A DNA stretch of 64,000 nucleotides from Ignavibacteriales bacterium. GTDB lineage: Bacteria > Bacteroidota > Ignavibacteria > Ignavibacteriales > Ignavibacteriaceae. A program made the position numbers and the translations under genes. The stretch spans positions 1-64,000 of the forward strand of contig JAGUYG010000083.1 of the NCBI GenBank assembly GCA_020061465.1, written 5' to 3'. Below, piece after piece: positions 17,583-37,444 of the stretch. A model generated the notes under the pieces. It saw nothing but the letters and a program-made list of their open reading frames with translations, was not told where the DNA came from and ran no database searches. Numbering within the stretch: position 1 is the stretch's first letter; the number at the start of each line of letters is the position of its first letter.

Positions 17583-18209
17583 ATGTTTATAACTTTTGAA
17601 GGAATAGATTTTTGCGGTAAATCCACGCAGGTTGATAAGTTAAAAGAATTTCTATTAGAACAAAAAAAGAAAGTGGAGGTTATCCGCGAACCCGGCGGTA
17701 CATTAATTAGCGAAAAAGTTCGACATATTCTCCTTGACAAAAACCACTATAGCATGTTCGAAGAGACAGAAATTTTTTTGTTTTCAGCCAGCAGGGCGCA
17801 ACTTGTAAGAGAAAAAATTAGACCTTATTTGGAAAAAGGATATTATGTAATTTCGGATAGGTTTTATGATTCAACTACTGCTTATCAAGGATACGGACGC
17901 GGAATTTCAATCGAAGCAGTAAAGCAAATAAATAATCTTGCAGTAGGAGATACTATTCCGGACATTACTTTTTTTATCGATATTCCGTTTGAAGAAGCAG
18001 TAAAACGCGGCAGTAAAAAATCAGGTGCCCAGCTCGACAGAATTGAAATATCTGGAGCCGAATTTTACAGTAAAGTAAGAGAAGGCTATTTAAAGCTGGC
18101 TTCGGAAGAAAAACGATTCCGCATAATTAATGGAACCCTGAATATTCAAGAAATTCACAATACGGTAATAGAAGAAATTATAAATTTAGAGAGCAAGGTA
18201 TCAGCATGA
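17583..18209 (+). CDS. tmk: Thymidylate kinase
   Basis: This 208-aa kinase phosphorylates dTMP to dTDP. The P-loop is FEGIDFCGKSTQ near residue 4, with F where Gly is usual. DRFYDSTTAYQGYGR near 93 carries the DRx and dTMP-binding motifs. The ATG at 17583 (MFITFEGID) matches the normal family start. A TTG at 17565, overlapping the ybbR-like stop, would add six residues. The stop overlaps the ctpA start. Confidence 0.93.
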   Translation: MFITFEGIDFCGKSTQVDKLKEFLLEQKKKVEVIREPGGTLISEKVRHILLDKNHYSMFEETEIFLFSASRAQLVREKIRPYLEKGYYVISDRFYDSTTAYQGYGRGISIEAVKQINNLAVGDTIPDITFFIDIPFEEAVKRGSKKSGAQLDRIEISGAEFYSKVREGYLKLASEEKRFRIINGTLNIQEIHNTVIEEIINLESKVSA

Positions 18210-19861
18210 AACGACTTCATATAAAAAATTTATTGGTCGGTGCTTTGATATTGATTCTTTTTTCGGGTTTCTTTCCCGGGAAAGACGATCTTTATTTTCA
18301 GATATCAAAGAACATCGATTTATTTGCTAAAGTATATAAGGAAATCAGCTTCAATTATGTTGATGATATTAATCCTGAAGAATTTATGCGGGCAGGAATA
18401 AGAGGTATGCTTAGTTCGCTTGATCCGTATACAATCTTTGTCGATGAAAACAAAAAGGATGAAATTGAACTAATTACAAACGGTAAATACGGCGGTGTCG
18501 GGATTACAATAGGTGTGAGAGGCGATAATGTAACCGTTGTTGAAGTGCTGGACGGATACTCGGCTCAGAAACAGGGCATACGGGTAGGCGACGTTCTTAT
18601 CGAAGCCGCAGGAGTTATGATTTCACCAGAGAATATTGATGAAATTTCAAGCCTGGTTAAAGGTGAACCGGGAACTTCAGTGGAAGTGATTATAACACGT
18701 AATGAAGCGAGAGATACAATTAAATTTGATTTGCTTCGCGAAGAAGTTCTTGTAAAAAATATTATGTATTATGGATTTTATCCCTCGAATAGTTCTAATG
18801 TTTACATTAAGCTTGCCAATTTCAGCAGAACAGCCTCAGATGAACTGAAGAAAGCTTTGCAGGAATTAAAAGCACAAAGGGAAATTAAATCCATTATTTT
18901 AGATTTACGCGGAAACCCCGGCGGTTTATTGGATGTTGCCGTTGATATTTGTGATAAATTTCTTAAAAAAGATATGCTCATCGTTACCACGAGAGGTAAA
19001 GATGCGGCTAGCGAAAGGAAATATTATTCCGTACAAGAACCGCTTGTCGGTAATGCGAATTTAATTGTTTTGGTAAATGAAGGTTCCGCTTCGGCTTCGG
19101 AAATTGTTGCCGGTGCAATTCAAGACCACGACCGCGGCTTAATCCTCGGTACTAAAACTTTCGGAAAAGGATTGGTGCAAACTATTACGCCTCTTAGCTA
19201 TAATACTTCACTAAAAATAACAACGGCAAAATATTATACTCCGAGCGGAAGGTGCATTCAAAGGGTTGATTATGCTAAATCGAACAAAGTTATAAACGAT
19301 CCGGATTCTTTAATCGAATCGTCGTTTCAAACCGACAATAAAAGGTATGTTTATAGCGCAGGCGGCATCACTCCGGATTCAATCGTTCAGTTTTCGGTAG
19401 AGGGCGATATTACTAAAGAACTCTTAGCTAAAGGTGTATTTTTCAAGTTTGCGGATAATTTTTATTATGCCAATTCATCCGAAGATTTAAATTCATTTTC
19501 GGATGAAATTCTCTTTTCGGATTTCGAAAAATATTTATCCAAAATAAATTTTGTCTATCGTTCCGAAGCCGAAAAGCAAATTGAAAAGCTTATCGCGGAT
19601 ACGGATTCAAAAAAAATGAACAAAACTATAAGCGAGGAACTAAATAAACTAAAATTATTACTCGAAAAAAGTGCAGATTCTGACTTGAAAGCTTACAAAA
19701 AAGAAATAATGCGGGAAATAAAAAGCGAACTTGCATCAAGATATTTAGGTGCCCAAGGCAAAATCATTAAACTGTTAGAGTATGATGAACAATTTCAAGC
19801 GGCATTGAAAATTTTTTCCGATTCAAATAAATATGACAAACTGCTGAATCTTAATGAATGA
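18206..19861 (+). CDS. ctpA: S41 carboxy-terminal processing protease
   Basis: This 551-aa CtpA/Prc family serine protease acts in the periplasm or envelope. It has a signal anchor (residues 7-22). A PDZ domain (about 85-175, GGVGITIGVRGDNVTVVEVL) precedes the catalytic core. The catalytic Ser is in NEGSASASEIVAGA near 300 and the Lys is in GTKTFGKGLVQT near 325. A C-terminal helical extension of about 150 residues follows, as in many Bacteroidota homologues. The start overlaps tmk by 4 bases. Confidence 0.93.
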   Translation: MKRLHIKNLLVGALILILFSGFFPGKDDLYFQISKNIDLFAKVYKEISFNYVDDINPEEFMRAGIRGMLSSLDPYTIFVDENKKDEIELITNGKYGGVGITIGVRGDNVTVVEVLDGYSAQKQGIRVGDVLIEAAGVMISPENIDEISSLVKGEPGTSVEVIITRNEARDTIKFDLLREEVLVKNIMYYGFYPSNSSNVYIKLANFSRTASDELKKALQELKAQREIKSIILDLRGNPGGLLDVAVDICDKFLKKDMLIVTTRGKDAASERKYYSVQEPLVGNANLIVLVNEGSASASEIVAGAIQDHDRGLILGTKTFGKGLVQTITPLSYNTSLKITTAKYYTPSGRCIQRVDYAKSNKVINDPDSLIESSFQTDNKRYVYSAGGITPDSIVQFSVEGDITKELLAKGVFFKFADNFYYANSSEDLNSFSDEILFSDFEKYLSKINFVYRSEAEKQIEKLIADTDSKKMNKTISEELNKLKLLLEKSADSDLKAYKKEIMREIKSELASRYLGAQGKIIKLLEYDEQFQAALKIFSDSNKYDKLLNLNE

Positions 19862-20180: not shown

Positions 20181-20564
20181 ATGAAGATCGAGCAGCAAAT
20201 TGACTATTGGTTATCAAGCGCAAAAGATGATCTTGATACGGCTGAATTGCTTATAGGAAGCGGAAAGATAATGCACGGTCTTTTCTTTTGTCACCTCAGT
20301 ATCGAAAAGTCATTTAAAGCCGTTTATGTAAAAATCAAAAAAAGTATTCCCCCTAAAACTCATAATTTAATTTACCTTATTGACAAGATGTCTTTAAATA
20401 TTAACGAATCGGATGAAGAATTTTTAGGGGTATTGATGAAATATCAATTGGAAGGAAGATATCCGGATTACAATCCTTCATTACCCTCTAAGGAAAAAGC
20501 AAAAGAATATTTTGATAAAACTAAAGAATTGTTGAAATGGCTAAAAAATCAGTTATCAAAATAA
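20181..20564 (+). CDS. HEPN-domain toxin
   Basis: This 127-aa helical protein of the HEPN family begins DYWLSSAKDDLDTAELLI (residues 8-25). It has the FFCHLSIEKSFKAVYVK helix near 35 and PPKTHNLIYLIDKM near 58. HEPN proteins paired with MNT proteins form type VII-like toxin-antitoxin modules, in which HEPN acts as an RNase. Its end overlaps the MNT gene by 28 bases. The catalytic R-x4-6-H motif is not obvious, so nuclease activity is unproven. Confidence 0.82.
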   Translation: MKIEQQIDYWLSSAKDDLDTAELLIGSGKIMHGLFFCHLSIEKSFKAVYVKIKKSIPPKTHNLIYLIDKMSLNINESDEEFLGVLMKYQLEGRYPDYNPSLPSKEKAKEYFDKTKELLKWLKNQLSK

Positions 20565-20854
20565 TCAACCGTTACCTTGAGCTATTAAGAAAGAACGGAT
20601 TGAAAATTGATAAAGCTTACTTGTTTGGAAGCTTTGCAAGAGGAGATGAAAATCATGAAAGCGATATCGATTTAATGATAGTTTCAAAAATTTTTGATTC
20701 TGAAAATGACAAAGCAGTAGGCTTAGCCTGGAAAATTACACGTCAGGTTGATTCTCGAATAGAACCGTATCTGGTAGGCTTAGAAAAATTTAATAATGAT
20801 GATATCTCACCACTGCTGCAAATTGTGAAGCAAGAGGGAATTTCATTAGTATAG
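20537..20854 (+). CDS. MNT-type nucleotidyltransferase antitoxin
   Basis: This 105-aa minimal nucleotidyltransferase carries the pol-beta motif GSFARGDENHESDIDLMIV (residues 31-49), with the Gly-Ser and paired Asp catalytic residues intact. In HEPN/MNT pairs it adenylylates the HEPN toxin. It overlaps the HEPN gene by 28 bases, which is strong evidence for a working pair. The pair sits just before the cassette array. Confidence 0.86.
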   Translation: MAKKSVIKIINRYLELLRKNGLKIDKAYLFGSFARGDENHESDIDLMIVSKIFDSENDKAVGLAWKITRQVDSRIEPYLVGLEKFNNDDISPLLQIVKQEGISLV

Positions 20855-21240: not shown

Positions 21241-21616
21241 TCAAATAGAAAATAGTGTTAAAATTACCGCAATAAATTCGATCATCGACACACCTCCGGG
21301 GTTTGAAGCCTGGCACAATGAAGAAAAACCTCGAAGGTTTTAAGATATATCAAAGGTATCAAATACAGCCTCAATTAAAAAAACTTGTAGCGGAAATAAA
21401 AAAAAATAGTTAAGTTGCAAGTGCTCTTCTTATGGCGGAGGGGATAAAACATTGTAAAGTTGGTAAGAGGGATATTTATGATGAATTCAGTCATTTACAT
21501 AAAATCTTTTACTGCGGTGTAATGTGAGCAAGCCAGAATTACCAGAACAGAGTAATATTGAACGGAGTGTCAAAATTATTTTAAAAATTAAAGAAATGAG
21601 ACGATCGAATACCAAA

Positions 21617-22500: not shown

Positions 22501-22938
22501 ATGTCATACAGAGATAGTGCTTCTTTTGGGAAAAGACAAGAATTTGTCGTAATAGCAGAATTATTAAAACGTAATTATGATGTTTATTTAACTCTTGTGG
22601 ATGACCAAGGAATTGATTGTCTTATTCGGAAAAGTTCAAATCGTTATCTTGATATTCAGATAAAAGCAAGGTCAAAGAAAGCAATACATTCACATACATT
22701 TGCGGGCTTAAAATTTAGTGTCAGAAAAAATTATTTTTTCATCTTCTATACAGAAATTGACAATAATTATTGGATAATCCCATCATCTGCAGTAAAAAGA
22801 TTCGGTAGAAAAAATAAATCTGGTAAAAACAAAGGCAAAGTTACAATCATAATGCCTCATAGAACTTATGGAAAAGTTTTCGAACGTTTTAAAAAATATA
22901 ATGGTGAAGAAGGATTCAAATTTTTAAAAAGGAAATAA
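22501..22938 (+). CDS. Cassette protein, restriction-endonuclease-like fold (DUF4365-like)
   Basis: The 145-aa basic protein shows a PD-(D/E)xK-like pattern: QGIDCLI near residue 39, then YLDIQIKARSKK near 50-62, with Asp, Gln and Lys in the usual order. This resembles DUF4365 proteins, often met in mobile and defence regions. It is the only gene of its cassette, which starts at GTTAGGTGCGT (22321). The cassette ends with the exact complement ACGCACCTAAC (22965-22975), 27 bases after the stop. A nuclease role is inferred from the fold pattern only. Confidence 0.6.
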   Translation: MSYRDSASFGKRQEFVVIAELLKRNYDVYLTLVDDQGIDCLIRKSSNRYLDIQIKARSKKAIHSHTFAGLKFSVRKNYFFIFYTEIDNNYWIIPSSAVKRFGRKNKSGKNKGKVTIIMPHRTYGKVFERFKKYNGEEGFKFLKRK

Positions 22939-22964: not shown

Positions 22965-23377
22965 ACGCACCTAACGAGACTGTCGAAAAAGTCATGTTGA
23001 ACAAAAAATTAACTTAAAAAAGAATACAAAAATGTTGACTTCAATTGAGCTCTTGGCGTACAAACCAAATATGGAAGTCGTTTTTTTTTGGGTTCTGCTT
23101 TGTCTTTACTTTTTCGACAGTCTCAACCCGCCAATCAAGCGGACGCCGTATTCGCATTTGGCATTTTTGATATTATAGAGTTAGTCGTTCCGTTTCGGCT
23201 AACTTGTTTAGGGTAGTTCTATTAATTAACATTGTTGCAAACTGCGCTTACGATGAAAGTTAAGCACAGTTTGCTAAATTATTGGCGTTGTCTTTCTAAT
23301 CGGCATCCTTGTTCCCGCCTTCGTTAAAAACTACGGCGGGCAAGCTGGGGCGCCGCTTATTGGCAACACCGATATAC
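22965..23377 (+). repeat. attC-like site b, carrying an inserted element
   Basis: The left box ACGCACCTAAC is an 11-base perfect complement of the start of its own cassette. L'' (CCAATCAAGCGGACGCC, 23131-23147) pairs with L' (GGCGCCGCTTATTGG, 23349-23363) over 15 positions. It leaves an extrahelical C and A, the hallmark of attC folding. The right core is GATATAC (23371-23377). A 149-bp element interrupts the site between R'' and L''. Confidence 0.72.
22976..23124. mobile_element. MITE-like element inside attC-like site b
   Basis: Perfect 17-bp terminal inverted repeats (GAGACTGTCGAAAAAGT at 22976-22992 and its complement at 23108-23124) bound 149 non-coding bases. AAC flanks both ends (22973-22975 and 23125-23127). 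Removing the element plus one AAC restores ...CCTAACCCGCC..., the same spacer seen in site d. It is therefore an insertion with a 3-bp target duplication. The parent transposase is not in the window. Confidence 0.75.
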
Positions 23378-23396
23378 CGTTTGATGCAATAATATT

Positions 23397-24296
23397 ATGA
23401 GTGATTATATTATTATGGCAATTGGGGCGATCATTACTGCTGCTGGTGCAATATTTTCTTTTCTTGAAAAAAGCAAAGAGAATAAAAATGATGGCAAAAG
23501 TAATTTGTATAATCTATCTACTTTCATAGCAATAATATGCGGTGTTTTAATAGCTTTATATTCAGGGATAGATTCGGTTTTTAATAAAAACGAAAGTGAA
23601 AGAGAAAGAAAAGCGAGTGATAGTTTAGCGAAAAAATCACAAGCCGAGTTACAATTAAAAAGTGACATGATTATTAGATTACAAGAGGAAAATAAATTTG
23701 AGACTAAATTATTGAATGATTCTTTGACAACTGCTAAATCAAAAATTATCAGTCTTCAAACAGAGATTAATAACAATATTATTGGAAGCCTTGAGCCCTG
23801 TTTTATTGTCTTTCAGACTTCATCATCGCGTAATGGAAATTCCGTAATTGTAAATGAAGGTAAACTTCCAATACTAGGCATTGAAATATACATAACAGAT
23901 TTTAATGAAATGATGAAATGTAAACAATCTCCGCAGGAAGAGTATTTAATTATTGATGAAACTTGTTACAACAAATGTACTAAAGTATTTAACTATCCTT
24001 TGATAAAACCTGGTCCATCCAAATTAAAGGACTATTCTTTACCTGATTCAAGTGATTTATTTCTTTTTGAAATTAGATTTTCTTATAACAGAAATATTGA
24101 ATATATGGAACATCTGATATGTAAGCGACAAGGCAATAATATCAATTGTTTAGCTCGTCTTTATGTATCGAAAAATAACAAGTATGAATTAATTAAAATT
24201 ATTAATCCAGATAAAGTTGATTGGAAAGTTGATTTCGAAAAGTTATTTGATGTGCCCAAAACCCAAAGAGCATTTGCCCCAATATTTTGGAGGTAA
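23397..24296 (+). CDS. Cassette membrane protein with coiled coil, unknown
   Basis: The 299-aa product begins with a hydrophobic segment (residues 3-23) and a second one (about 41-58), so the N-terminus is a hairpin anchor. A charged coiled coil (about 68-125) is followed by a beta-rich domain with four cysteines. The protein is not recognised. It is the sole gene of a cassette starting at GATATACCG (23371) and ending with CGGTATAAC (24316). Its membrane anchor, soluble C-terminal domain and position before Gabija are compatible with a defence or sensor role, but that is speculation. Confidence 0.7.
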   Translation: MSDYIIMAIGAIITAAGAIFSFLEKSKENKNDGKSNLYNLSTFIAIICGVLIALYSGIDSVFNKNESERERKASDSLAKKSQAELQLKSDMIIRLQEENKFETKLLNDSLTTAKSKIISLQTEINNNIIGSLEPCFIVFQTSSSRNGNSVIVNEGKLPILGIEIYITDFNEMMKCKQSPQEEYLIIDETCYNKCTKVFNYPLIKPGPSKLKDYSLPDSSDLFLFEIRFSYNRNIEYMEHLICKRQGNNINCLARLYVSKNNKYELIKIINPDKVDWKVDFEKLFDVPKTQRAFAPIFWR

Positions 24297-24315
24297 TAAT
24301 TTTTTTATAACAAAA

Positions 24316-24505
24316 CGGTATAACCAGTTTTACAAGTCGCCTGCTTTAAACTGTTCGGCATTTGTGTCGTTATAAAGTTGCGGTGTAAAAGTTAGTTGCT
24401 CTTTAAGTGTAGTACACAAAACAAATTTATAAATAATTATCGGCGTTGGCTTTTTAGTGTTGCATTGTTGTTCTGGGCAGCGCCTTAGTTGCCACGCCGT
24501 TATAC
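24316..24505 (+). repeat. attC-like site c
   Basis: CGGTATAAC (24316-24324) complements the start of the preceding cassette; with flanking bases 11 of 12 match. ACAAGTCGCCTGC (24332-24344) is roughly complementary to GCAGCGCCTTAGT (24477-24489). The core is GTTATAC (24499-24505). The interior shares the block AGTTGCTCTTTAAGTGTAG with sites d and g. The site is 190 bases long. Confidence 0.68.
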
Positions 24506-24525
24506 ATCTAAATATTTGGAATATT

Positions 24526-26277
24526 ATGCACATACAAAAAGTATTCATAAAAAATTTTCGAAACTTTTCTGAATTTGAAATAAACTATTCAGAGGGATTT
24601 CAAACAATAATTGGCGAAAACAATGTTGGCAAAAGTAATCTATACCATGCAATAAGGTTGGTGCTAGATGGGAATATGACTTATAATGATAGGTTACTTT
24701 CGGAAGAAGATTTCTTTGGATTCAACAAAATTAAAATTGATGATTATGTTATCATTGGCATCGATTTTTATAGTGATAATCTCTCATCGTTCCCAAACTT
24801 ACATGCTATTAAAACATCGGATACAACTGCAAGAGTAATATATCTTTACGCTCACAAATCCAAACTAAAACAAACTGAAGAAGTATTTGAAAAAGTCGAA
24901 ATAAAAGACTTTCGATTTAATCTATATGGTGGTGGTAACTCATACGAATTTGCAGACATCATTGAATTAAATAAAATATCTTTCAAGGAACTTGAAGGAA
25001 TTAATTTATTCTTTATTACAGCCTTTCGAAATATATATAGAGATCTTCATGGTAGTAATAATTCATTGCTCAGCCAATACTGTTCTACTCGTGAAAATTC
25101 TGAAGATGAACTTGATAAAATTAATACAATATTAGATTCCTCTTCAACACAATTAAACGAATTGGATTTTATACCAGACATAACAGAATATATCAAAGAA
25201 AAGAGTAAAGAAATCGCGGGTAATTATTTTTCATTCCCAATATCTTTAAGTTTCTTATCTAACTATCAATCTGATTCATGGAATAAATTAAATATTTTCT
25301 TTAATCCAGAAGAGGGAAAGAATATACCTCTGAATGTCCTTGGACTTGGTCAAAGGAATATTCTTTATCTAAGCTTATTTGTAGCCAAACTTATTAATGA
25401 ACAGAATAGCAATGAATTAAACCTATTGTTAATTGAAGAGCCAGAAGCACACCTTCACCCTCAATTACAAAAACTGTTGTTTTCAAATTTGGGTATTTTG
25501 AAAAATACACAAGTATTCATGACTTCTCATTCTACCCACATTGCAAGTGATTGTGAATTCAAAAACCTTAATATTCTTTATAGAGATACTAAGGGCATCG
25601 TGAAATCTTACTCCCCATTCATAAATGATATTCTTACAAAACGTGAATCACGTCTCTTGAAAAGATATTTAGATTCTACACGTTCTGAAATCTTTTTTGC
25701 CTCTTCAGCTATTTTCGTTGAAGGAGTAGCTGAGCAATTCATTATCCCAGCTATTGCAAAACAAAAATATGGCATTAATTTAACTGAATATAACGTTTCA
25801 GTTATACCAATTCATAGTAGATACTTTGATCCATTTTTAAAACTATTCCAGAATAATAATTTGGAAGTAATTGCTTGTGCTATTATAGATGGAGATAGTT
25901 CAGAAATAAAAAATGAAGAAGACTCTACAACTGCTGTTCAAAAGGCAAAGGAGTTAGAAGTAGAAAAGCGCGTGAAAATTTTCGTTGGTATAAATACACT
26001 CGAAACAGATTTATTTCCAGACCCAAATGTCAATAATGCTTATCTCCTAAAATGTTTTGAAAACCTTGGTCATAAACAATCATTTTCGAATTTATTAAAA
26101 GTGCCTTCTGAAGAATGGTGTGAGCAATTGATCCTTCGAATAGAACAAACTGTTAAAAAAGGAAGATTTGCACAAGAATTAGCTGGACTTATTGACGAAG
26201 ATTTTATAGTCCCAAGCTATATAGAAGAAGCGTTAAAATTTATAGCTCAGCAAAAAGGAATAGCCATTAATGCTTAA
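24526..26277 (+). CDS. gajA: Gabija GajA: OLD-family ATPase/TOPRIM nuclease
   Basis: From ATG 24526 the protein is 583 aa, beginning MHIQKVFIKNFRNFSEFEI. An in-frame ATG at 24457 lies inside the attC-like site and is rejected. Walker A is GENNVGKSN (residues 30-38), the signature-like LGLGQRN is near 270, Walker B is LLIEEPEAHLHPQ near 304, and SHSTHIA follows. The TOPRIM part has FVEGVAEQ near 398 and IIDGDS near 454. In Gabija, GajA is a sequence-specific DNA nickase held off by nucleotides. The overlap with the helicase gene and the matching length give good confidence. Confidence 0.88.
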   Translation: MHIQKVFIKNFRNFSEFEINYSEGFQTIIGENNVGKSNLYHAIRLVLDGNMTYNDRLLSEEDFFGFNKIKIDDYVIIGIDFYSDNLSSFPNLHAIKTSDTTARVIYLYAHKSKLKQTEEVFEKVEIKDFRFNLYGGGNSYEFADIIELNKISFKELEGINLFFITAFRNIYRDLHGSNNSLLSQYCSTRENSEDELDKINTILDSSSTQLNELDFIPDITEYIKEKSKEIAGNYFSFPISLSFLSNYQSDSWNKLNIFFNPEEGKNIPLNVLGLGQRNILYLSLFVAKLINEQNSNELNLLLIEEPEAHLHPQLQKLLFSNLGILKNTQVFMTSHSTHIASDCEFKNLNILYRDTKGIVKSYSPFINDILTKRESRLLKRYLDSTRSEIFFASSAIFVEGVAEQFIIPAIAKQKYGINLTEYNVSVIPIHSRYFDPFLKLFQNNNLEVIACAIIDGDSSEIKNEEDSTTAVQKAKELEVEKRVKIFVGINTLETDLFPDPNVNNAYLLKCFENLGHKQSFSNLLKVPSEEWCEQLILRIEQTVKKGRFAQELAGLIDEDFIVPSYIEEALKFIAQQKGIAINA

Positions 26278-27952
26278 TGATTATCAAAGAAGGGTAGCAT
26301 ATCAACTTGAAAGTAACACTTTAGTGTCTGCGAGTCCTGGCTCTGGTAAAACAAAAACGCTTGTGGCACGGGCTGAACATAAATTAGATTCATTGCCTGC
26401 AAAAAAAACATTAGCTTTGATTACATATACAAATGCAGCGGCTGATGAAATAGCTTCGAGATTAGTATCTAATACTCCAATATTTATTGGAACCATTCAT
26501 AGATTTTGTCTTGAATATATCTTAAGACCGTTTTCATGGTTATATAACTGGTCAAAACCAAGAATTGCTAGTTATGAAAATCTACGTCAATTCATTGATG
26601 ATAATGTTGATTTATCTTTGACCATTGATGATTTAAATATGATTCGCAAGGATATACATGGGAATATTGATTTAACTGTAGATTGGAATAATAACAATGC
26701 GATCGAAGAGGTAGCATTTAAATATTATTCATATCTGGAACGTATTAATGTCATAGATTTTAATGAAATTCTATATAGGTCTTTCAAAATAGTCGCTGAA
26801 AATAAATTTGTAGCCATATCTTTATCTAATAAGTTTTATGAAATATTAATTGATGAGTTTCAAGACACTAGTTATTTCCAATACAGTATATTAAAAATAA
26901 TTAACGATTCTGGACCCACCACCTATTTTATGGTTGGTGATGAAAGACAAAGCATTTATCGTTTTGCTGGTGCATTCAGTGGATCATTCCAAAATGCTCA
27001 GACTGATTTTTCGACTAATATTGAAAATTTACCCATTACTTATAGATCAACTAATAATATAGTAAAGGCATATTGTTCTCTTTTTGAGAATCACCCTGAA
27101 ATAATAAATGAATCTGAGAATAATTGCATTTCTATTCCAATACAGTCTATAGAATATGATAGAAATAATCATGCTGGAATTTTGCGACAAATAATTAGTC
27201 ATTTGTATGTTAACAATGGTATACCTCTATCAGAAATAGCAATCCTTTCTGCAAGATGGCAAGAATCTTTTTTTGCAAGCAGAGAGTTAAGAGTTAATTA
27301 TAATGTTGTGGGATTAGGTGCATTACCACACCCATCTCGTAATTTGAACAACTCTACTTTTAACCTTTTTAGAACTTTAGTCCAATTTAGATATCGACAA
27401 TCTATTGGTCGTTTAAGAGCTATTAAACGTGCTATTGAATTACATTTTCTTGAAAATGGTGTTTCATACGAAGAAAAAGCAATAAACGTAATACAAAATA
27501 AATTGCTTGAAAGTATTATTGGAGTTGATACTTTAATTCCTTTAGAAAATGGTTTGCTAGTTGTCTTAGATATATTTAATAATACATTTCAAGTTGATCA
27601 CCCAACATTTCACGACATTATTTTAAGGATTCAACCTGATGAATTACCATTATGGTCGTTAGCTAAATACTTTAAAACACTTTCTGGTGTTGATGGAATT
27701 ACAATTAACACTATTCATCAAGCAAAAGGTCTTGAATTTGAAGCAGTTGTTCTTGATTCGATTAATACTGGTAGAATTCCTTATCAAGTATGGGATTCAA
27801 GAAATAGGCAATATTTGCCTCCAACTCCAATTAGTATTGAAGATGGCAGAAAACTTTTTTATGTAGCTGTTAGTCGAGCAAAAAAACATTTGGTAATAAC
27901 ACATAATTGGAATCCATCTTTTTTTGTTGATATTATTCGAAGCGAGGTATAA
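26270..27952 (+). CDS. gajB: Gabija GajB: UvrD-like helicase
   Basis: This 560-aa superfamily 1 helicase has Walker A SASPGSGKTKT (residues 19-29), ILIDEFQDTS near 193, MVGDERQSIYRFAGA near 222, TIHQAKGLEFEAVVLD near 480, and LFYVAVSRAKKH near 531. In Gabija, GajB senses DNA ends and works with GajA against phage. It overlaps gajA by 8 bases. Its TAA stop (27950-27952) lies inside the R'' box of the following attC-like site, so gene and site are tightly joined. Confidence 0.88.
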   Translation: MLNDYQRRVAYQLESNTLVSASPGSGKTKTLVARAEHKLDSLPAKKTLALITYTNAAADEIASRLVSNTPIFIGTIHRFCLEYILRPFSWLYNWSKPRIASYENLRQFIDDNVDLSLTIDDLNMIRKDIHGNIDLTVDWNNNNAIEEVAFKYYSYLERINVIDFNEILYRSFKIVAENKFVAISLSNKFYEILIDEFQDTSYFQYSILKIINDSGPTTYFMVGDERQSIYRFAGAFSGSFQNAQTDFSTNIENLPITYRSTNNIVKAYCSLFENHPEIINESENNCISIPIQSIEYDRNNHAGILRQIISHLYVNNGIPLSEIAILSARWQESFFASRELRVNYNVVGLGALPHPSRNLNNSTFNLFRTLVQFRYRQSIGRLRAIKRAIELHFLENGVSYEEKAINVIQNKLLESIIGVDTLIPLENGLLVVLDIFNNTFQVDHPTFHDIILRIQPDELPLWSLAKYFKTLSGVDGITINTIHQAKGLEFEAVVLDSINTGRIPYQVWDSRNRQYLPPTPISIEDGRKLFYVAVSRAKKHLVITHNWNPSFFVDIIRSEV

Positions 27953-28134
27953 CCCGCCGCTCAACACGGACAGCATTTTTCAAAGCGGCAATTGTGTAAT
28001 TATAAAGTTGTGTTTGCAAAGCTAAGTTACTCTTTAGGGTAGGTTGTTATAAGAAACATTTTTATAAATAAAAGTTATTGCTTCTATTCGGCATTCTTGC
28101 TCTGGGCAGTAGCTTAAACACAACGCCGTTATAT
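27944..28134 (+). repeat. attC-like site d
   Basis: GAGGTATAAC (27944-27953) matches the complement of the Gabija cassette start GTTATACATC at 9 of 10 positions. CCGCCGCTCAACACGGACAGC follows as the L'' region. The L'-R' end TCTGGGCAGTAGCTTAA...AACGCCGTTATAT (28101-28134) aligns with the ends of sites b, c and g. The interior carries AAGTTACTCTTTAGGGTAG (28024-28042). Confidence 0.66.
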
Positions 28135-28194
28135 GCACAGTAAATAAATTAATTATGTCCTATATTACAGACAAAAAATTTTGGAAAAACATCA

Positions 28195-30129
28195 ATGAAA
28201 TTATTTAAAATATTAGAAAATCAACTCAAGAAAGAACCCAACTTCGTTTCCGACAACGGAGAACTGAAAAAATGGGTGGTGCTGAACAAAGCACAGAATT
28301 TTGACGAAGAACTTATTGGTCTGTTGCTCGACAATAACGACTTGAAAGAGAAGTTTTTTGTAAAAGTTAAAGGCACGATGGTTTTTAATCAAAACTTGTT
28401 TGTGCAATTCTTAGAGCAAAAAAACTACCTGAACGACAGCTACACTCAATACAAAAAAAAGGTTGGACTGACCATTGACGGCAAATACTTAAAACAACGC
28501 AACGAAGTGGCTTTAGTATGGCCTTTTAAAGACTGCATTTTGGAAGGCGGACAAAGCCGGGAAGAAGATAAACGGGAAGAAATTTTCTTCAATGAAATTT
28601 TAGCACAAGACGAAATTACACAACTCTTAGAACCAAAAGTTTTAACCAACGCAAAACGCATTGACAAGGAGGGTGAAAAACCACTTGACCAATTTAACCG
28701 AAACGAAAACGGCACAATAACAGACAACTTGATTATAAAAGGTAACAACCTATTGGCCTTGCATACTTTGAAAGAAGAATTTGCAGGGAAAGTTAAACTG
28801 ATTTACATAGACCCGCCATATAATACAGGCGGTGAAGCCGAAACTTTTACCTACAATAACAATTTTAATCATTCAACCTTTTACACTTTTCTTAAAAACA
28901 GGCTTCAAATAGCAAAGACATTTTTACGGGAAGATGGGTTTATTTGTATCGCAATAGACCACTTCGAATTATATTACTTGGGAGTTATTGCAGATGAAAT
29001 CTTTGGAAGAGATAACAAAGTTGGAGTAGTAACTGTAGTTCATAAACCTGAAGGAAGAAATCAGGAAAAGTTTTTTGGTACTTCGAATGAATTTATGTTA
29101 GTCTATGCTAAAAATAAAAGTATTGCGGAGTTTCAAGATGTAATTTTAGACAAAGAATTGGCTGAGCGATATGATAAAGAAGATGATGGTGGAAAGTATA
29201 GATTGAAAAATTTTATCAGATTAACTGATGGAAAATATAGTTTACGGGAGAATAAACCCCACTTCTATTATCCAATTTACGTTAGTAAGACATTAGATAA
29301 ATTCAGTATAGAACCTATTGAAGACTATACCCCAGTTTATCCAATAACAGATAAAGGAGTTGAAAGAACTTGGAAAACTACTGAAAAAACTTTCTTGAAA
29401 TTGGTTAGCGAAAATAAAATAGTAGCTGAAAAATCTGAAGATGGTAGTATTGCACTTTTTGAAAAACTTAGAGAAAAACAAGTAATAAAAACTCATTGGA
29501 TTAAGAAAGAGTATCACGCATATCATTTTGGAACAAAGCTTTTGGAAAACACACTTGGAAGAAAGGCTTTCAGTTTTCCTAAATCATTATATACGGTTTT
29601 TGATACCTTAAAAATAATAACTGAACCTGAAGATATTATAATGGATTTTCACGCAGGTTCGGGAACAACAGCACACGCAGTAATTGAGTTAAACAAGGAA
29701 GATGATGGGAATAGACAATTCATTTTAGTTGAACAACTAAATGAACATATTGATATTTGTAATGAACGTATTCAAAAAGTTTTATTAAAGAATAATGCAG
29801 CACTTTCCTTCATCTATCTCGAACTGAAAAAATACAACCAAACTTTCATTGAGCAGCTAGAAGAAGCCAAAAATACTAAAGCACTTTTAAAGATCTGGGA
29901 ACAGATGAAAACCAAATCATTCCTAAATTACAATGTGGATATTAAAAAACAAGAAGAACACATTGAAGACTTTAAAGCCCTAAGTCTGAAAGAGCAGAAA
30001 CAACACCTTTGCGAACTGTTGGACAAAAACCAACTGTATGTAAATCTTTCTTCGCTCAACGACCAGGACTTTGCCTGCACCGAAAAAGAAAAGAAAGTAA
30101 CCAAAGATTTTTACCAAATTAAAGAATAA
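28195..30129 (+). CDS. mod: Type III restriction-modification methyltransferase (Mod)
   Basis: This 644-aa beta-class adenine-N6 methyltransferase has the DPPY motif LIYIDPPYNTGG near residue 203, ahead of the AdoMet motif DFHAGSGTTAHAV near 484. That is the order seen in Mod proteins. The region between should hold the target-recognition domain, roughly 270-440. Its base composition is more AT-rich than the flanks, as usual for swapped recognition domains. The res gene follows after 4 bases. It is the first gene of a two-gene cassette that starts at GTTATATGC (28128). Confidence 0.93.
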   Translation: MKLFKILENQLKKEPNFVSDNGELKKWVVLNKAQNFDEELIGLLLDNNDLKEKFFVKVKGTMVFNQNLFVQFLEQKNYLNDSYTQYKKKVGLTIDGKYLKQRNEVALVWPFKDCILEGGQSREEDKREEIFFNEILAQDEITQLLEPKVLTNAKRIDKEGEKPLDQFNRNENGTITDNLIIKGNNLLALHTLKEEFAGKVKLIYIDPPYNTGGEAETFTYNNNFNHSTFYTFLKNRLQIAKTFLREDGFICIAIDHFELYYLGVIADEIFGRDNKVGVVTVVHKPEGRNQEKFFGTSNEFMLVYAKNKSIAEFQDVILDKELAERYDKEDDGGKYRLKNFIRLTDGKYSLRENKPHFYYPIYVSKTLDKFSIEPIEDYTPVYPITDKGVERTWKTTEKTFLKLVSENKIVAEKSEDGSIALFEKLREKQVIKTHWIKKEYHAYHFGTKLLENTLGRKAFSFPKSLYTVFDTLKIITEPEDIIMDFHAGSGTTAHAVIELNKEDDGNRQFILVEQLNEHIDICNERIQKVLLKNNAALSFIYLELKKYNQTFIEQLEEAKNTKALLKIWEQMKTKSFLNYNVDIKKQEEHIEDFKALSLKEQKQHLCELLDKNQLYVNLSSLNDQDFACTEKEKKVTKDFYQIKE

Positions 30130-30133
30130 GCAA

Positions 30134-32695
30134 ATGGCGTTTCTACACGAAATATTCAACAATCCATTTGCCCGTAAAACCTTAGCACAAGTTGCCTTGC
30201 CAAATGGAATAAGTGATAATTTGAAATTCGATATTCGTCCTTATCAGGAAGAAGCTTTCAAACGCTATTTATACACTGAGCAAGAAGATTTTGAAGAAAA
30301 GCCAAAGAAACCTTTGCACTTGCTTTTCAATATGGCAACAGGAAGCGGAAAAACGTTGATAATGGCAGGTTTGATGTTGCACCTTAGCGAAAAAGGCTAT
30401 CGAAATTTTCTGTTTTTTGTAAACAGCAACAATATCATTCAAAAGACGAAAGATAATTTTCTGAATCCTCAGGCTTCAAAATATTTGTTCAACGACAAAA
30501 TTGTGCTTGAAGGAAAAGAAGTGTTAATCAAAGAGATTGATAATTTTGAAGAAGCCGACAATCAAAATATCAATATCAAGTTTACTACCATTCAGCAACT
30601 GCATATTGACCTAAACAACACCAAGGAGAACAGTGTAACCTACGAAGATTTTAAGGACAAGAAAATGGTGCTGATTGCTGACGAAGCTCACCATTTAAGT
30701 TCAGCCACCAGAAGCAACGGAGCATTATTCGGTAGTTGGGAAGGAACGGTTTTAGAAATTCTCAATCAAAACTTTAATAATATCCTTTTAGAATTTACAG
30801 CAACATTAGACTATGAAAGCCGAGAAATCGTAAACAAGTATCAGGAAAAAGTCATTTTCAAATACGACCTTGCCCAGTTCCGAATTGATAAGTATTCCAA
30901 AGAAATCAACCTTATCCGTTCCTTGTATGACGAGCAAGAGCGAATTATACAAGCCTTGATATTGAATTTGTATCGCCAAGATTTGGCAAATTCAAACAAT
31001 ATCAATTTGAAGCCGGTAATTCTATTCAAGGCAAAACGAACAATCAAAGAATCTGAACAGAACAAAGAGAATTTCCACAAACTAATTGATGATTTTTCCG
31101 TGGCAATGGTGGAAAAAATCAAAAAGACTTCCACCGTTCCCATCGTTCAAAAGGCTTTCCAGTTTTTTGTCGCAAAAGAAATTTCAGCTAACGAAATTGT
31201 GAAACGCGTACAAGCCAATTTCAGATTTGAAAACTGCCTGAGTGCTAACAATGATGCAGAAGCGGAACAAAATCAAATTTTGCTCAACACTTTGGAAGAT
31301 GAAAACAATCCAATCCGTGCCGTTTTTGCCGTACAGAAGTTGAACGAAGGTTGGGATGTACTGAATTTGTTTGACATTGTTCGTCTGTATGAAGGAAGAG
31401 ATGGCAGAGAAAATAGACCAGGCAAAACAACAATTTCCGAAGCACAGCTTATTGGTAGAGGCGCAAGATATTATCCCTTTACATTAGAAGAAGGACAGGA
31501 CAAATACACCCGAAAATTTGATGATAATATTTCCAATGACTTGAAAACACTGGAAGAGTTGTATTACCACACCAAAGAAGACAGTAAATATATCTCAGAA
31601 TTAAAAATTGCTCTGGTAGAATCCGGCATTTATGAAGATGATGAAAACTTGGTTTCAAAGCAGCTTACTTTAAAATTAGAATTTAAGGGAACGGATTTTT
31701 ATCGAGACGGGCACGTTTTATTCAATAAAAAAGTGCCAAAGAGCTTTGACAATATAAAATCATTTGCAGACTTAGGAGTAAAGAAAACAAACTATCGTCA
31801 TACCCTATCTTCGGGAGTTGGCAGAATGTCGAGTGCATTTTTTGAAATGGAAAATCCGACTTCAAATGATGAAGTGATTAAAACCAAAGATGTAAAAATG
31901 ATGGATATTCCTAAAAACATATTACGATTTGCATTAAGCCAAAATCCGTTTTACTATTTTGATAGTTTATCACATTACTTCCCAAGTGTAAGTTCACTTT
32001 CCAATTTCATTGACAGCACAGACTTTTTAGCAGGCTTGGAAATCACTTTTAGCGGAACAGTAAACCGATTAAAAGAAATTAGCCACTTTGACTATTTGCA
32101 AGCCCTGAACGGACTTTTGCAAAGCATTGAAGCGGACATTAAGAGCAATTCAACCGAATACGAAGGTTCAGACTATATTTCTGATCATATTCGCAATGCT
32201 TTTAAAGACAAGGAAATTAGAATAAATAAATATGATGAGAGAGCAAAAGGTCAAGAAGAATTAGTAGCCAACGAACCTTGGTATGTATACAACGCAAACT
32301 ACGGAACAATTGAAGAAAAGAAGTTTGTAGAACTTTTTGCCAGACGCTTTGAAGGACTGAATCAGAAGTTTGAAAACATTTACCTAATCCGTAATGAAAG
32401 AGAAATTAAAATCTTCGACAAACTCGGACGAGCTTTTGAACCTGACTTTTTACTTTTCTGCAAACAACGCGACGGAGAACAGATGACTTATCAGGTATTC
32501 ATTGAGCCAAAAGGCGAACATATTGCAAACAGCAAGGATAATAAATGGAAAGAAGACTTTTTGAAAGAAATCAGAACTGATCAAAAGACAATCAAAATCC
32601 ACACGGACACTTACTTAATCACAGCCGTTCCTTTCTACAATTACGCAAACGAAAATGAATTTAAAACGACATTAGAAAGTACATTAAAAATATAA
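30134..32695 (+). CDS. res: Type III restriction enzyme (Res)
   Basis: The 853-aa subunit combines a superfamily 2 helicase with a C-terminal nuclease. Walker A is NMATGSGKTLIMAGL (residues 62-76). The DEAH-type Walker B is LIADEAHHLS near 180, NEGWDVLNLFDIVRLYE is near 407, and motif VI is QLIGRGARYY near 442. A PD-(D/E)xK nuclease lies near the end: FEPDFLLF near 771 and YQVFIEPKG near 790. With Mod it cuts unmodified foreign DNA, driven by ATP hydrolysis. The gene looks complete. Confidence 0.93.
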   Translation: MAFLHEIFNNPFARKTLAQVALPNGISDNLKFDIRPYQEEAFKRYLYTEQEDFEEKPKKPLHLLFNMATGSGKTLIMAGLMLHLSEKGYRNFLFFVNSNNIIQKTKDNFLNPQASKYLFNDKIVLEGKEVLIKEIDNFEEADNQNINIKFTTIQQLHIDLNNTKENSVTYEDFKDKKMVLIADEAHHLSSATRSNGALFGSWEGTVLEILNQNFNNILLEFTATLDYESREIVNKYQEKVIFKYDLAQFRIDKYSKEINLIRSLYDEQERIIQALILNLYRQDLANSNNINLKPVILFKAKRTIKESEQNKENFHKLIDDFSVAMVEKIKKTSTVPIVQKAFQFFVAKEISANEIVKRVQANFRFENCLSANNDAEAEQNQILLNTLEDENNPIRAVFAVQKLNEGWDVLNLFDIVRLYEGRDGRENRPGKTTISEAQLIGRGARYYPFTLEEGQDKYTRKFDDNISNDLKTLEELYYHTKEDSKYISELKIALVESGIYEDDENLVSKQLTLKLEFKGTDFYRDGHVLFNKKVPKSFDNIKSFADLGVKKTNYRHTLSSGVGRMSSAFFEMENPTSNDEVIKTKDVKMMDIPKNILRFALSQNPFYYFDSLSHYFPSVSSLSNFIDSTDFLAGLEITFSGTVNRLKEISHFDYLQALNGLLQSIEADIKSNSTEYEGSDYISDHIRNAFKDKEIRINKYDERAKGQEELVANEPWYVYNANYGTIEEKKFVELFARRFEGLNQKFENIYLIRNEREIKIFDKLGRAFEPDFLLFCKQRDGEQMTYQVFIEPKGEHIANSKDNKWKEDFLKEIRTDQKTIKIHTDTYLITAVPFYNYANENEFKTTLESTLKI

Positions 32696-32705
32696 ATCTT
32701 AAATC

Positions 32706-32726
32706 GCATATAACACGCCATTATGT
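32706..32726 (+). repeat. attC-like site e, collapsed to its outer boxes
   Basis: GCATATAAC (32706-32714) is a perfect complement of the restriction cassette start GTTATATGC (28128-28136). Only ACGCC separates it from the next core ATTATGT. The hairpin interior present in the other sites is gone, probably lost by deletion between ACGCC copies that normally flank the interior. Such a site should no longer fold for recombination. Confidence 0.5.
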
Positions 32727-33577
32727 TACAAAATTATATGAACAAAATAGAATTAAATCCATCCATTTTTAAACATATTGAAGCAATAAAGACAAATTCT
32801 GAAAATTTCTTCAATGCGTTTCCAAATCTTCTTCTTGCCGCTGAGGAAATCCATGATATTTTTGACCAATTATTTGTAGAACAATTCCAACAAAAAAATA
32901 ATGCGCTATGGGAGGCTTCCGTCCATAAAATGATTTTTGGTGCTCATTCTAGTTGGTTACAGGGGATAATATTGACAGCAGCAGGTTTAAATGAGACCGG
33001 TTTAATTAGTATTCGCAGAGGTATTGAATATGTATGCTATTCATCGAAAATAAAACAGTCCGATGAAAAAAACATCATTTGGTTAGATCGAGGAATGGAT
33101 GATGAAAAAGATAGATTATTTAGTAGTAAGTTTTCAATTCCTTCAAAATATTTTACTGATAAATATAAAAATTTAAAAGCTCTTTTAGTTTGGCATGATT
33201 ATGCATCTTTGTTTGGTGCTCACGGAAATTTCACATCATTAATTAGTAAATGGGATTCAGAATCAGAAGGAAGTATGAAAATGTTCTTCCATGATAATCC
33301 ACAAAGAACACCTTTATCAACTGGTGTAGCGGTTCGTATTGGCAGTTTTATGATTACTGCATTCTTTGAAACTTTTAAGGGAAATATAAAAGATGAACAA
33401 GCATTTCAAGAAAAAATAGAAATTATGAATGAGATATTAAATAAGGCTCGTGTTGAGGTTATTAATTACGAATCAAAAGGCAAAGTAACGTTTGAAGATT
33501 TATTAGCTGTATATAGTAGAGAGGATCCTGCAATCGAAGAGATGTATCTAAAGTTAAAAGAAAAATATTGCAAATAA
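32723..33577 (+). CDS. Cassette protein, helical, unknown
   Basis: The 284-aa frame opens at ATG 32723, inside the collapsed core site. ATG 32738 (MNKIELNPSIF, 279 aa) is the more natural start, though neither has a clear ribosome binding site. The product is mostly helical and soluble. A conserved-looking stretch, HSSWLQGIILTAAGLNETGL then SIRRGIEYVCYSSKI, lies near residues 75-110. I do not recognise the family. It is the only gene of its cassette; the closing box GCAACATAAC (33584-33593) complements the start TTATGTTAC. Confidence 0.65.
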   Translation: MLQNYMNKIELNPSIFKHIEAIKTNSENFFNAFPNLLLAAEEIHDIFDQLFVEQFQQKNNALWEASVHKMIFGAHSSWLQGIILTAAGLNETGLISIRRGIEYVCYSSKIKQSDEKNIIWLDRGMDDEKDRLFSSKFSIPSKYFTDKYKNLKALLVWHDYASLFGAHGNFTSLISKWDSESEGSMKMFFHDNPQRTPLSTGVAVRIGSFMITAFFETFKGNIKDEQAFQEKIEIMNEILNKARVEVINYESKGKVTFEDLLAVYSREDPAIEEMYLKLKEKYCK

Positions 33578-34384: not shown

Positions 34385-34416
34385 TGATTTTATTATAAGA
34401 TATTAAATAGAAATTA

Positions 34417-34634
34417 GTGCCTAATCATCAAATCAATCCGCTAGTGTGAGCTAGCGGCTATGATGCAGTTCTTAAGTTTTGTGTTTTATGAAAGTTACTC
34501 TTTAAAGTAGTTAATGTTGGAAAGTTAGTTCCGCCTTGCTTGCAAAGAAAAATAAGCAAGGCTACAGTTCTAAACATTTTTAAATAAAAAATATTGTGGT
34601 TCCGGGCGGCGGGTTATTTGCAACGCCGGCAGGC
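34417..34634 (+). repeat. attC-like site g, degenerate
   Basis: GTGCCTAATC (34417-34426) partly complements the right core GGCAGGCAC (34628-34636). The L'-R' end TTCCGGGCGGCGGGTTATT..AACGCCGGCAGGC aligns with sites b, c and d. The interior carries AAGTTACTCTTTAAAGTAG (34492-34510), as in sites c and d. The core has drifted from GTTRRRY. The 288-base gap holds no gene. Confidence 0.5.
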
Positions 34635-34672
34635 ACATGTGTAATAAGCATACAAACAAACGGGGATTAGAT

Positions 34673-36004: not shown

Positions 36005-37444
36005 ATGAACGAATCAGTCAAAGTAAAATTGAAGAGTATTGTCGGGGGAAATAATTTTTTTGATTCGTATGAGGACCGCTTGTGTTATTCATACGATGCT
36101 ACTCCTCTCTATCAGCAGCTTCCCGAAGCTGTTGTTTTTCCCGAATCGGAAGAGCAAATCTCTGCTGTAATAAAACTTGCAAACGAAGCCAGGTTTGCTG
36201 TAGTTCCGCGTGGTGCCGGTACAGGCTTAAGCGGTGGCTCGATCCCTGTTGAAAATTCAGTTGTCGTTGTAATGACAAGGTGGAATAAAATTTTAGAGAT
36301 TGACACTCAAAACCTTACAGCATGGGTTCAACCCGGTGTAGTAACTGGCGACTTACAGAAGGAAGTTGAAAAGTACGGGTTATTTTATCCACCCGATCCC
36401 GGAAGCCTTAACGTTTGTACTTTAGGCGGTAATGTTGCCAATAACGCCGGAGGATTAAGAGGTTTAAAATACGGTGTAACAAAAAATTATGTGCTCGGAA
36501 TCGAGATGATTTTGCCTAATGGACAACTTCTGAAATTCGGCGGTAAAAATATGAAGGATGTGGCGGGCTACAACCTGAAAGATTTTATTATCGGCAGTGA
36601 AGGCACATTAGGAATTATTACAAAAATTTTGCTGCGGATTATTCCGATGCCGACGCATTCGGTTACACTGCTTGCTTATTTTGATAAACTGAAAGACAGT
36701 GCACAATCAGTAAGCGATATAATCGCCGCACATATCACTCCCTGCATGATGGAGTTTCTCGACAATACAACCATAAATTGTGTTGAAGATTATACTAAAA
36801 TCGGTTTGCCTATTAATGCTGAAGCAATGCTCCTAATCGAAGTTGACGGAAGAGGAAGCAGTGTTTTCGAAGATTCGGAATTAATTCAAAACTTATTAAA
36901 AAAGAATAGAGCGGCGAACATCAAAATAGCTTCCGATGCTGCTGAATCTTTAATACTTAAAACTGCTCGCCGAAGCGCATTCAGCGCACTCGCAAGAAGA
37001 AAGCCGACCACCATTCTTGAAGATGCAACCGTGCCGAGAAGCGAATTGCCTGTTATGATAGAAAAGGTTACCGAAGCGGCAAAAAAATTCGACGTGATTA
37101 TTGGGAATTTCGGACATGCCGGCGACGGAAATCTTCATCCCACTTGTTTAACCGATGAACGTGACGAAGCTGAAATCGAAAAAGCTCACAAAGCATTCGA
37201 CTTTATTTTTAATGAAGCTATCAAGCTCGGCGGAACTATTACCGGAGAACACGGGACAGGCTTAGCAAAGAAAAAATTCCTTGAAAAGGTTGCCGGCATT
37301 CCCGCAATAGATATGATGATGAAAATTAAATTGGTAATAGATGAAAATAATATCTTAAATCCAGGCAAAATCTTTTCAATCAGTCCGCGGTGCGAAGGAA
37401 CTCTTCCTATAAGCAGAAATCAAATAAAGGAATTTCACAAGTGA
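36005..37444 (+). CDS. glcD: FAD-linked 2-hydroxyacid dehydrogenase, GlcD-like
   Basis: This 479-aa flavoprotein belongs to the glycolate/D-lactate dehydrogenase family. The FAD-binding PCMH domain (about 40-215) contains PRGAGTGLSGGSIP near 60 and DPGSLNVCTLGGNVANNAGG near 130. The FAD-oxidase C domain ends with GNFGHAGDGNLHPT near 363 and GEHGTGLAKKKF near 417. With the iron-sulfur subunit GlcF encoded 0.9 kb on, it would oxidise glycolate or D-lactate and pass electrons to quinone. No glcE is seen. The stop overlaps the start of the next gene. Confidence 0.92.
   Translation: MNESVKVKLKSIVGGNNFFDSYEDRLCYSYDATPLYQQLPEAVVFPESEEQISAVIKLANEARFAVVPRGAGTGLSGGSIPVENSVVVVMTRWNKILEIDTQNLTAWVQPGVVTGDLQKEVEKYGLFYPPDPGSLNVCTLGGNVANNAGGLRGLKYGVTKNYVLGIEMILPNGQLLKFGGKNMKDVAGYNLKDFIIGSEGTLGIITKILLRIIPMPTHSVTLLAYFDKLKDSAQSVSDIIAAHITPCMMEFLDNTTINCVEDYTKIGLPINAEAMLLIEVDGRGSSVFEDSELIQNLLKKNRAANIKIASDAAESLILKTARRSAFSALARRKPTTILEDATVPRSELPVMIEKVTEAAKKFDVIIGNFGHAGDGNLHPTCLTDERDEAEIEKAHKAFDFIFNEAIKLGGTITGEHGTGLAKKKFLEKVAGIPAIDMMMKIKLVIDENNILNPGKIFSISPRCEGTLPISRNQIKEFHK

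Follow-up and report, generated by a model that had tools for sequence, protein, structure and literature searches.

Evidence for a complete Gabija operon captured as a single, large integron gene cassette in an Ignavibacteriales bacterium

In Vibrio, sedentary chromosomal integrons serve as reservoirs for anti-phage cassettes (Darracq et al. 2025; Getz et al. 2025, via PMC12409362), and in the consulted passages of that source these defence cassettes are described as streamlined and small, no system among them exceeding two genes. The same passages attribute phage defence functions to mobile integrons as well (Kieffer et al. 2025, via PMC12409362). Outside the vibrios, in the chromosomal integrons of Treponema transcription of intI runs in the direction of attI and the cassettes (PMC3607928), and complete integrons have been reported in Ignavibacteriae (PMC9024848), in passages that are silent on defence cassettes in those arrays.

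Here we describe a locus from an Ignavibacteriales bacterium (GCA_020061465.1) in which the two genes of a Gabija system, gajA and gajB, lie between integron recombination sites. The stretch analysed, hereafter the window, comprises the first 64,000 nucleotides of contig JAGUYG010000083.1. Like the Vibrio integrons as portrayed in PMC12409362, the locus holds attC-flanked defence cassettes in a chromosomal array; it differs from them in carrying a full-size two-gene Gabija system (3.6 kb) and a type III restriction-modification (R-M) system (4.6 kb), in an array that is short and whose intI has decayed. With the mobile integrons of the same passages it shares anti-phage cassettes, but no mobile platform or plasmid context is seen here. 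It belongs to the same group as the reported Ignavibacteriae integrons, and the integrons of its class share the intI orientation of those of Treponema, a different phylum. Defence genes carried by integrons are already known, as are integrons in Ignavibacteriae; what this locus adds is an unusually large Gabija cassette, and Gabija within an integron cassette is undescribed in the consulted passages of PMC13064858, PMC12409358 and PMC12342005.

We consider it very probable that an integron of the type seen across this class captured the gajA-gajB operon as one gene cassette. The case rests on the structure of the attC sites, the pairing of boxes over 94 cassettes, a full-length IntI and the co-occurrence of intI and attC.

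The gajAB operon and its recombination sites

The two genes are as follows.
24526-26277, + strand: gajA, 583 aa, AAA_15 ATPase with OLD-like TOPRIM, ATG start
26270-27952, + strand: gajB, 560 aa, UvrD-like helicase, directly downstream of gajA

Both frames are intact and they overlap by 8 bp, and the genes therefore form one operon, with a GC content (30.5%) lower than that of the flanks (36.5-37.8%). GajA matches the PADLOC GajA model (340 bits, 7e-102) as well as Pfam AAA_15 and OLD-like_TOPRIM, both above cut-off, and structures of class 2 OLD nucleases align to its C-terminal portion. GajB matches the PADLOC GajB model (262 bits, 2e-78), and its PDB matches include solved GajB chains, with UvrD and Rep scoring higher. 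The pair thus has the composition that characterizes Gabija, an ATPase and TOPRIM OLD-like nuclease with a UvrD-like helicase immediately 3' of it, and it shares with the known systems the class 2 OLD type of the nuclease and the overlapping operon. This GajA is distant from most known GajA proteins (about 28-33% identity among the matches found), the best match, at 60%, being from Allomuricauda ochracea. If expressed, the two proteins would work as a Gabija anti-phage pair. A gajA start at GTG 24457 (606-aa ORF) was set aside, as it lies inside an attC and the Allomuricauda homologue agrees in its start with the ATG at 24526.

The boxes, the cassette and the attC sites of the window are listed below, with scores from a covariance model, R1, described further on.
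24499-24508, + strand: R' box GTTATACATC, start of the cassette
27944-27953, + strand: R'' box GAGGTATAAC, holding the gajB stop codon TAA
24500-28128, + strand: gajAB gene cassette by integron convention, 3,629 bp, running from the G^TT point of one R' box to that of the next
R'' to G^TTATACATC: predicted junction of a gajAB circle
23115-23385: attC further upstream (R1 E 7e-20), with a 149-bp MITE-like element after its R''
24313-24513: attC upstream of gajAB, belonging to the preceding cassette (R1 134 bits, E 3.8e-30)
27942-28142: attC of the gajAB cassette (R1 80 bits, E 2.7e-17), L-arm pairing partly lost
34414-34642: last attC of the array (R1 E 2.4e-26)

A sequence-only reading of the window had already pointed to the two boxes, and they were found where it had placed them, complementary at 9 of 10 positions and enclosing exactly gajA and gajB. 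The extent it had given, 24499-27953, is right at its start and falls short at its end, where the body of the attC was left out; the cut points lie in G^TT at 24499/24500 and at 28128/28129. It had also singled out the gajB stop codon, and the TAA (27950-27952, in GAG GTA TAA) does lie within R'', a position that is ordinary rather than rare for a stop codon (15/94 cassettes).

A 9/10 match between boxes is not significant in itself, since three other GTTA[GT]/[AC]TAAC pairs between 21 and 36 kb, unrelated to attC, equal it (24242/29339, 26871/27891 and 27658/31183). A plain R' pattern search of the genome was likewise useless alone, giving 119 matches against 341 in the reversed control. In an integron, the R'' box that closes a cassette pairs with the R' box that opened that cassette. 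This rule holds for 20 cassettes of the genome, whose own R' and R'' boxes match at 4.80 of 6 variable positions versus 2.20 for mismatched boxes (0/200,000 permutations), while an R'' and the R' next after it in the array match at the background level (2.4); it also holds for 94 cassettes from the genome and its relatives (4.73 of 6 versus 2.01, 0/20,000 permutations). The boxes of gajAB match at 5 of 6, a value equalled by 18/380 mismatched pairs, so that, taken for gajAB alone, box pairing argues only modestly, and the attC context supplies the remainder.

This context is provided by R1, built from eight attC-like sites on contigs C24, C85, C115, C68, C1 and C106, aligned as bottom strands and including no sequence from the window. 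Its structure has 26 pairs, 10 in the R box and 16 in the L box; columns 221 and 228, which lie on the L'' side in the bottom strand, are unpaired. In the alignment, 87% of cells are paired versus 30-39% with the partner slid, a figure that leans to the structure because this was drawn from the same sequences; better evidence comes from the 14 pairs with two-sided changes, a number reached by 0/500 shuffles. R1 finds four full sites in the window and, over the whole genome, 24 sites. That of gajAB is the weakest of the four (80 bits versus 170-198 for the best of the genome) and keeps the R core but only part of the L arm; about 6 of 16 L-arm pairs are broken in both sites beside gajAB. Single-sequence folding was not taken as proof, as some sites fold well and these two do not: their fold energies are unremarkable (z of -0.30 and -0.25, the latter for the attC of gajAB), unlike that of C24:67213-67412. 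An Rfam search of 19-41 kb gave no match at gathering score. A sub-threshold match to RF02800 lies at 19062-19189 on the minus strand (53 bits, gathering 60).

The integrase and its distribution across the class

The genome carries one full-length IntI (C114:13429-14370), which scores 439 bits against TIGR02249 (cut-off 265), has the IntI-specific extra segment and gives a full-length alignment to V. cholerae IntI4 (2a3v, 272 bits). Its contig ends 70 bp past the intI stop codon; in relatives a GTTA box follows intI. No attI was identified in the window, and a repeated 26-mer, AACTAAGCGTAAGATAGAAATCGTTA, was rejected as a candidate because the sequences after intI in relatives differ.

Among 245 genomes of the class, intI is present in 45, R1 attC sites in 47 and both in 26 (Fisher P 5e-11). 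The R1 sites begin shortly 3' of intI, in the same direction, in G124, G263 and G333, and a few kb past it in G236 and G294. One locus serves as an example.
G124 C1 1507483-1520635: attC array directly 3' of intI
In these class integrons the attC sites are about 200-240 bp long and IntI reads towards the array. Such an integrase would recombine the folded bottom strand of attC, leaving a G^TT join at each end, and the operon would have been captured as a unit, to stand today as third cassette beside the type III R-M system.

History of the array

The array is a small chromosomal one (22.3-34.6 kb) in which gajAB is the third recognisable cassette, the order being a DUF4365-like gene, a 299-aa gene, gajAB, type III mod-res, a 284-aa gene and a methyltransferase-like gene. 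It lies between a C-terminal peptidase gene (18206-19861) and glcD (36005-37444), which are 16.1 kb apart here and only about 20-450 bp apart in 11/20 family relatives; the intervening 16 kb or so must then be an insertion, or several.
21372-21541, + strand: remnant of the intI-upstream region, sharing 84% identity with what precedes an intI fragment on C23 and intI on C114
22322-23371, + strand: cassette with the DUF4365-like gene (22501-22938), boxes GTTAGGTGCG/CGCACCTAAC matching 10/10
23372-24499, + strand: cassette whose gene, 23397-24296, encodes 299 aa and matches no family, boxes GATATACCGT/ACGGTATAAC
28129-32720, + strand: type III R-M cassette (mod 28195-30129, res 30134-32695), boxes GTTATATGCA/CGCATATAAC matching 9/10

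Both genes of the 4.6-kb R-M cassette are recognised by PADLOC (MTase_III 5e-136, REase_III 1e-140). The attC after them has collapsed to R''-ACGCC-R' (32705-32729, about 25 bp), and the gene that follows has its start codon (32723) in the R' box; as a consequence of the collapse, mod-res could now exit only with that gene, if at all. Of the proteins of neighbouring cassettes, P0003 has no match in 244 other genomes of the class and P0004 has one (38%), a rarity that fits a patchy cassette pool and says nothing on movement.

Two kinds of repeat occur at the array. A MITE-like element of 147-149 bp with inverted ends GAGACTGTCGAAAAAGT...ACTTTTTCGACAGTCTC has at least eight copies (window 22976-23124; L024 7268, 8060 and 10622; L025 1931; L101 6201; L030 1493; C68), and each copy immediately follows the TAAC of an attC R'' and precedes AAC or AAT; it is either a MITE that strictly targets attC or the mark of an attC lineage that inherited one insertion. 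A repeat ending in AACTAAGCGTAAGATAGAAATCG stands directly 5' of a cassette GTTA and occurs six times in the genome, three times at the end of a contig (window 22195-22324 and 33690-33924; C19, C68, C85, C106); it is unlike the sequence after intI in relatives. The insertion between the peptidase gene and glcD also holds, at 20181-20854 of the window, two small overlapping genes, the second MntA-like (below cut-off), possibly a HEPN-MNT pair.

Whether the cassette is still in motion is a separate matter. With intI absent from the array and represented there by its upstream remnant only, the L arms degraded in both attC sites that flank gajAB and the attC after the R-M cassette collapsed, we lean, if only somewhat, towards the view that gajAB entered long ago and is now fixed. 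Against this, the box cores are intact and the full-length IntI elsewhere in the genome could act in trans. This view refines the capture of the operon as a cassette, and both can hold. The lack of an intI of its own and the weakened L-arm pairing of both attC sites make the efficiency of excision doubtful, and present mobility is doubtful too. No second copy of the cassette, nor an empty site within the array, was found; viral contigs held no copy and plasmids only matches below 60%. The earlier claim that a full Gabija system forms a single cassette is supported by the attC on both sides, the intact genes and the box pairing, and its corollary, that the system is movable as a unit, holds as history, given the pairing of the cassette's own boxes and the attC structure, but not for the present.

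Homologous gajAB genes lacking the boxes had been proposed as a sign that the boxes are coincidental. A search for GajA in 394 other genomes of the phylum gave nothing above 33% identity, and the nearest gajAB, that of A. ochracea (genome_contigs search), lies beside another large gene and without attC, which is literally the case proposed; it means that gajAB exists outside integrons too, not that the boxes here are coincidental. This same homologue, outside any attC context, is what could suggest that gajAB was never a cassette and was placed between attC sites by homologous recombination or a transposon. We regard this as improbable, since the gajAB boxes, R' and R'', are partners of one another (5/6) and not of the neighbouring boxes (2-3/6), the start and stop codons abut the boxes and no terminal repeats are seen. 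Still less likely is a fusion of two cassettes, one with gajA and one with gajB, through loss of an intervening attC: the site at 32705-32729 shows that attC sites do collapse in this array, but the 8-bp overlap leaves no space for a scar and the Allomuricauda homologues are likewise adjacent and overlapping. Finally, the absence of any integron at gajAB, with boxes that match by chance as 9/10 pairs can in an AT-rich region, is refuted by the covariance model, IntI, the box rule and the class-wide co-occurrence.

Cassette size and defence genes in relatives

In the sampled relatives, whose loci were chosen for their attC arrays and not at random, attC-to-attC lengths have a median of 1,013 bp, and G333, G473, G035 and G236 have intervals of 2.5-4.2 kb whose boxes match 6/6. 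Defence-type genes occur in four of the arrays.
L142 5536-7844: type II R-M, a methyltransferase and restriction endonuclease pair in a 2.57-kb cassette of G473
L139 5685-7307: fused AriAB-like (AriAB/PARIS-like) gene, 466 bits, in a 1.86-kb cassette of G124
L147 1270-4995: nSTAND3, a cassette gene of 1241 aa in G035
L148 8147-9646: SIR2 (SIR2/ThsA-like) gene of G267, sharing its interval with two genes on the reverse strand

As gajAB and mod-res have two genes each, the reported statement on gene number is unbroken; the cassettes are simply not small. Full-size two-gene cassettes such as these, and the type II R-M pair of a relative, do press against the reported rule of small size. Tentatively, the integrons of this class, with their long attC and an intI reading into the array, may tolerate large multi-gene cassettes and so serve as libraries of full-size defence systems, beyond that limit.

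A precise cassette is a defined capture route for Gabija that can be read from sequence, and one of 3.6 kb with two genes tests the rule that integron-borne defence systems are small. The class-wide attC model allows further defence cassettes to be listed in Ignavibacteria-like genomes.
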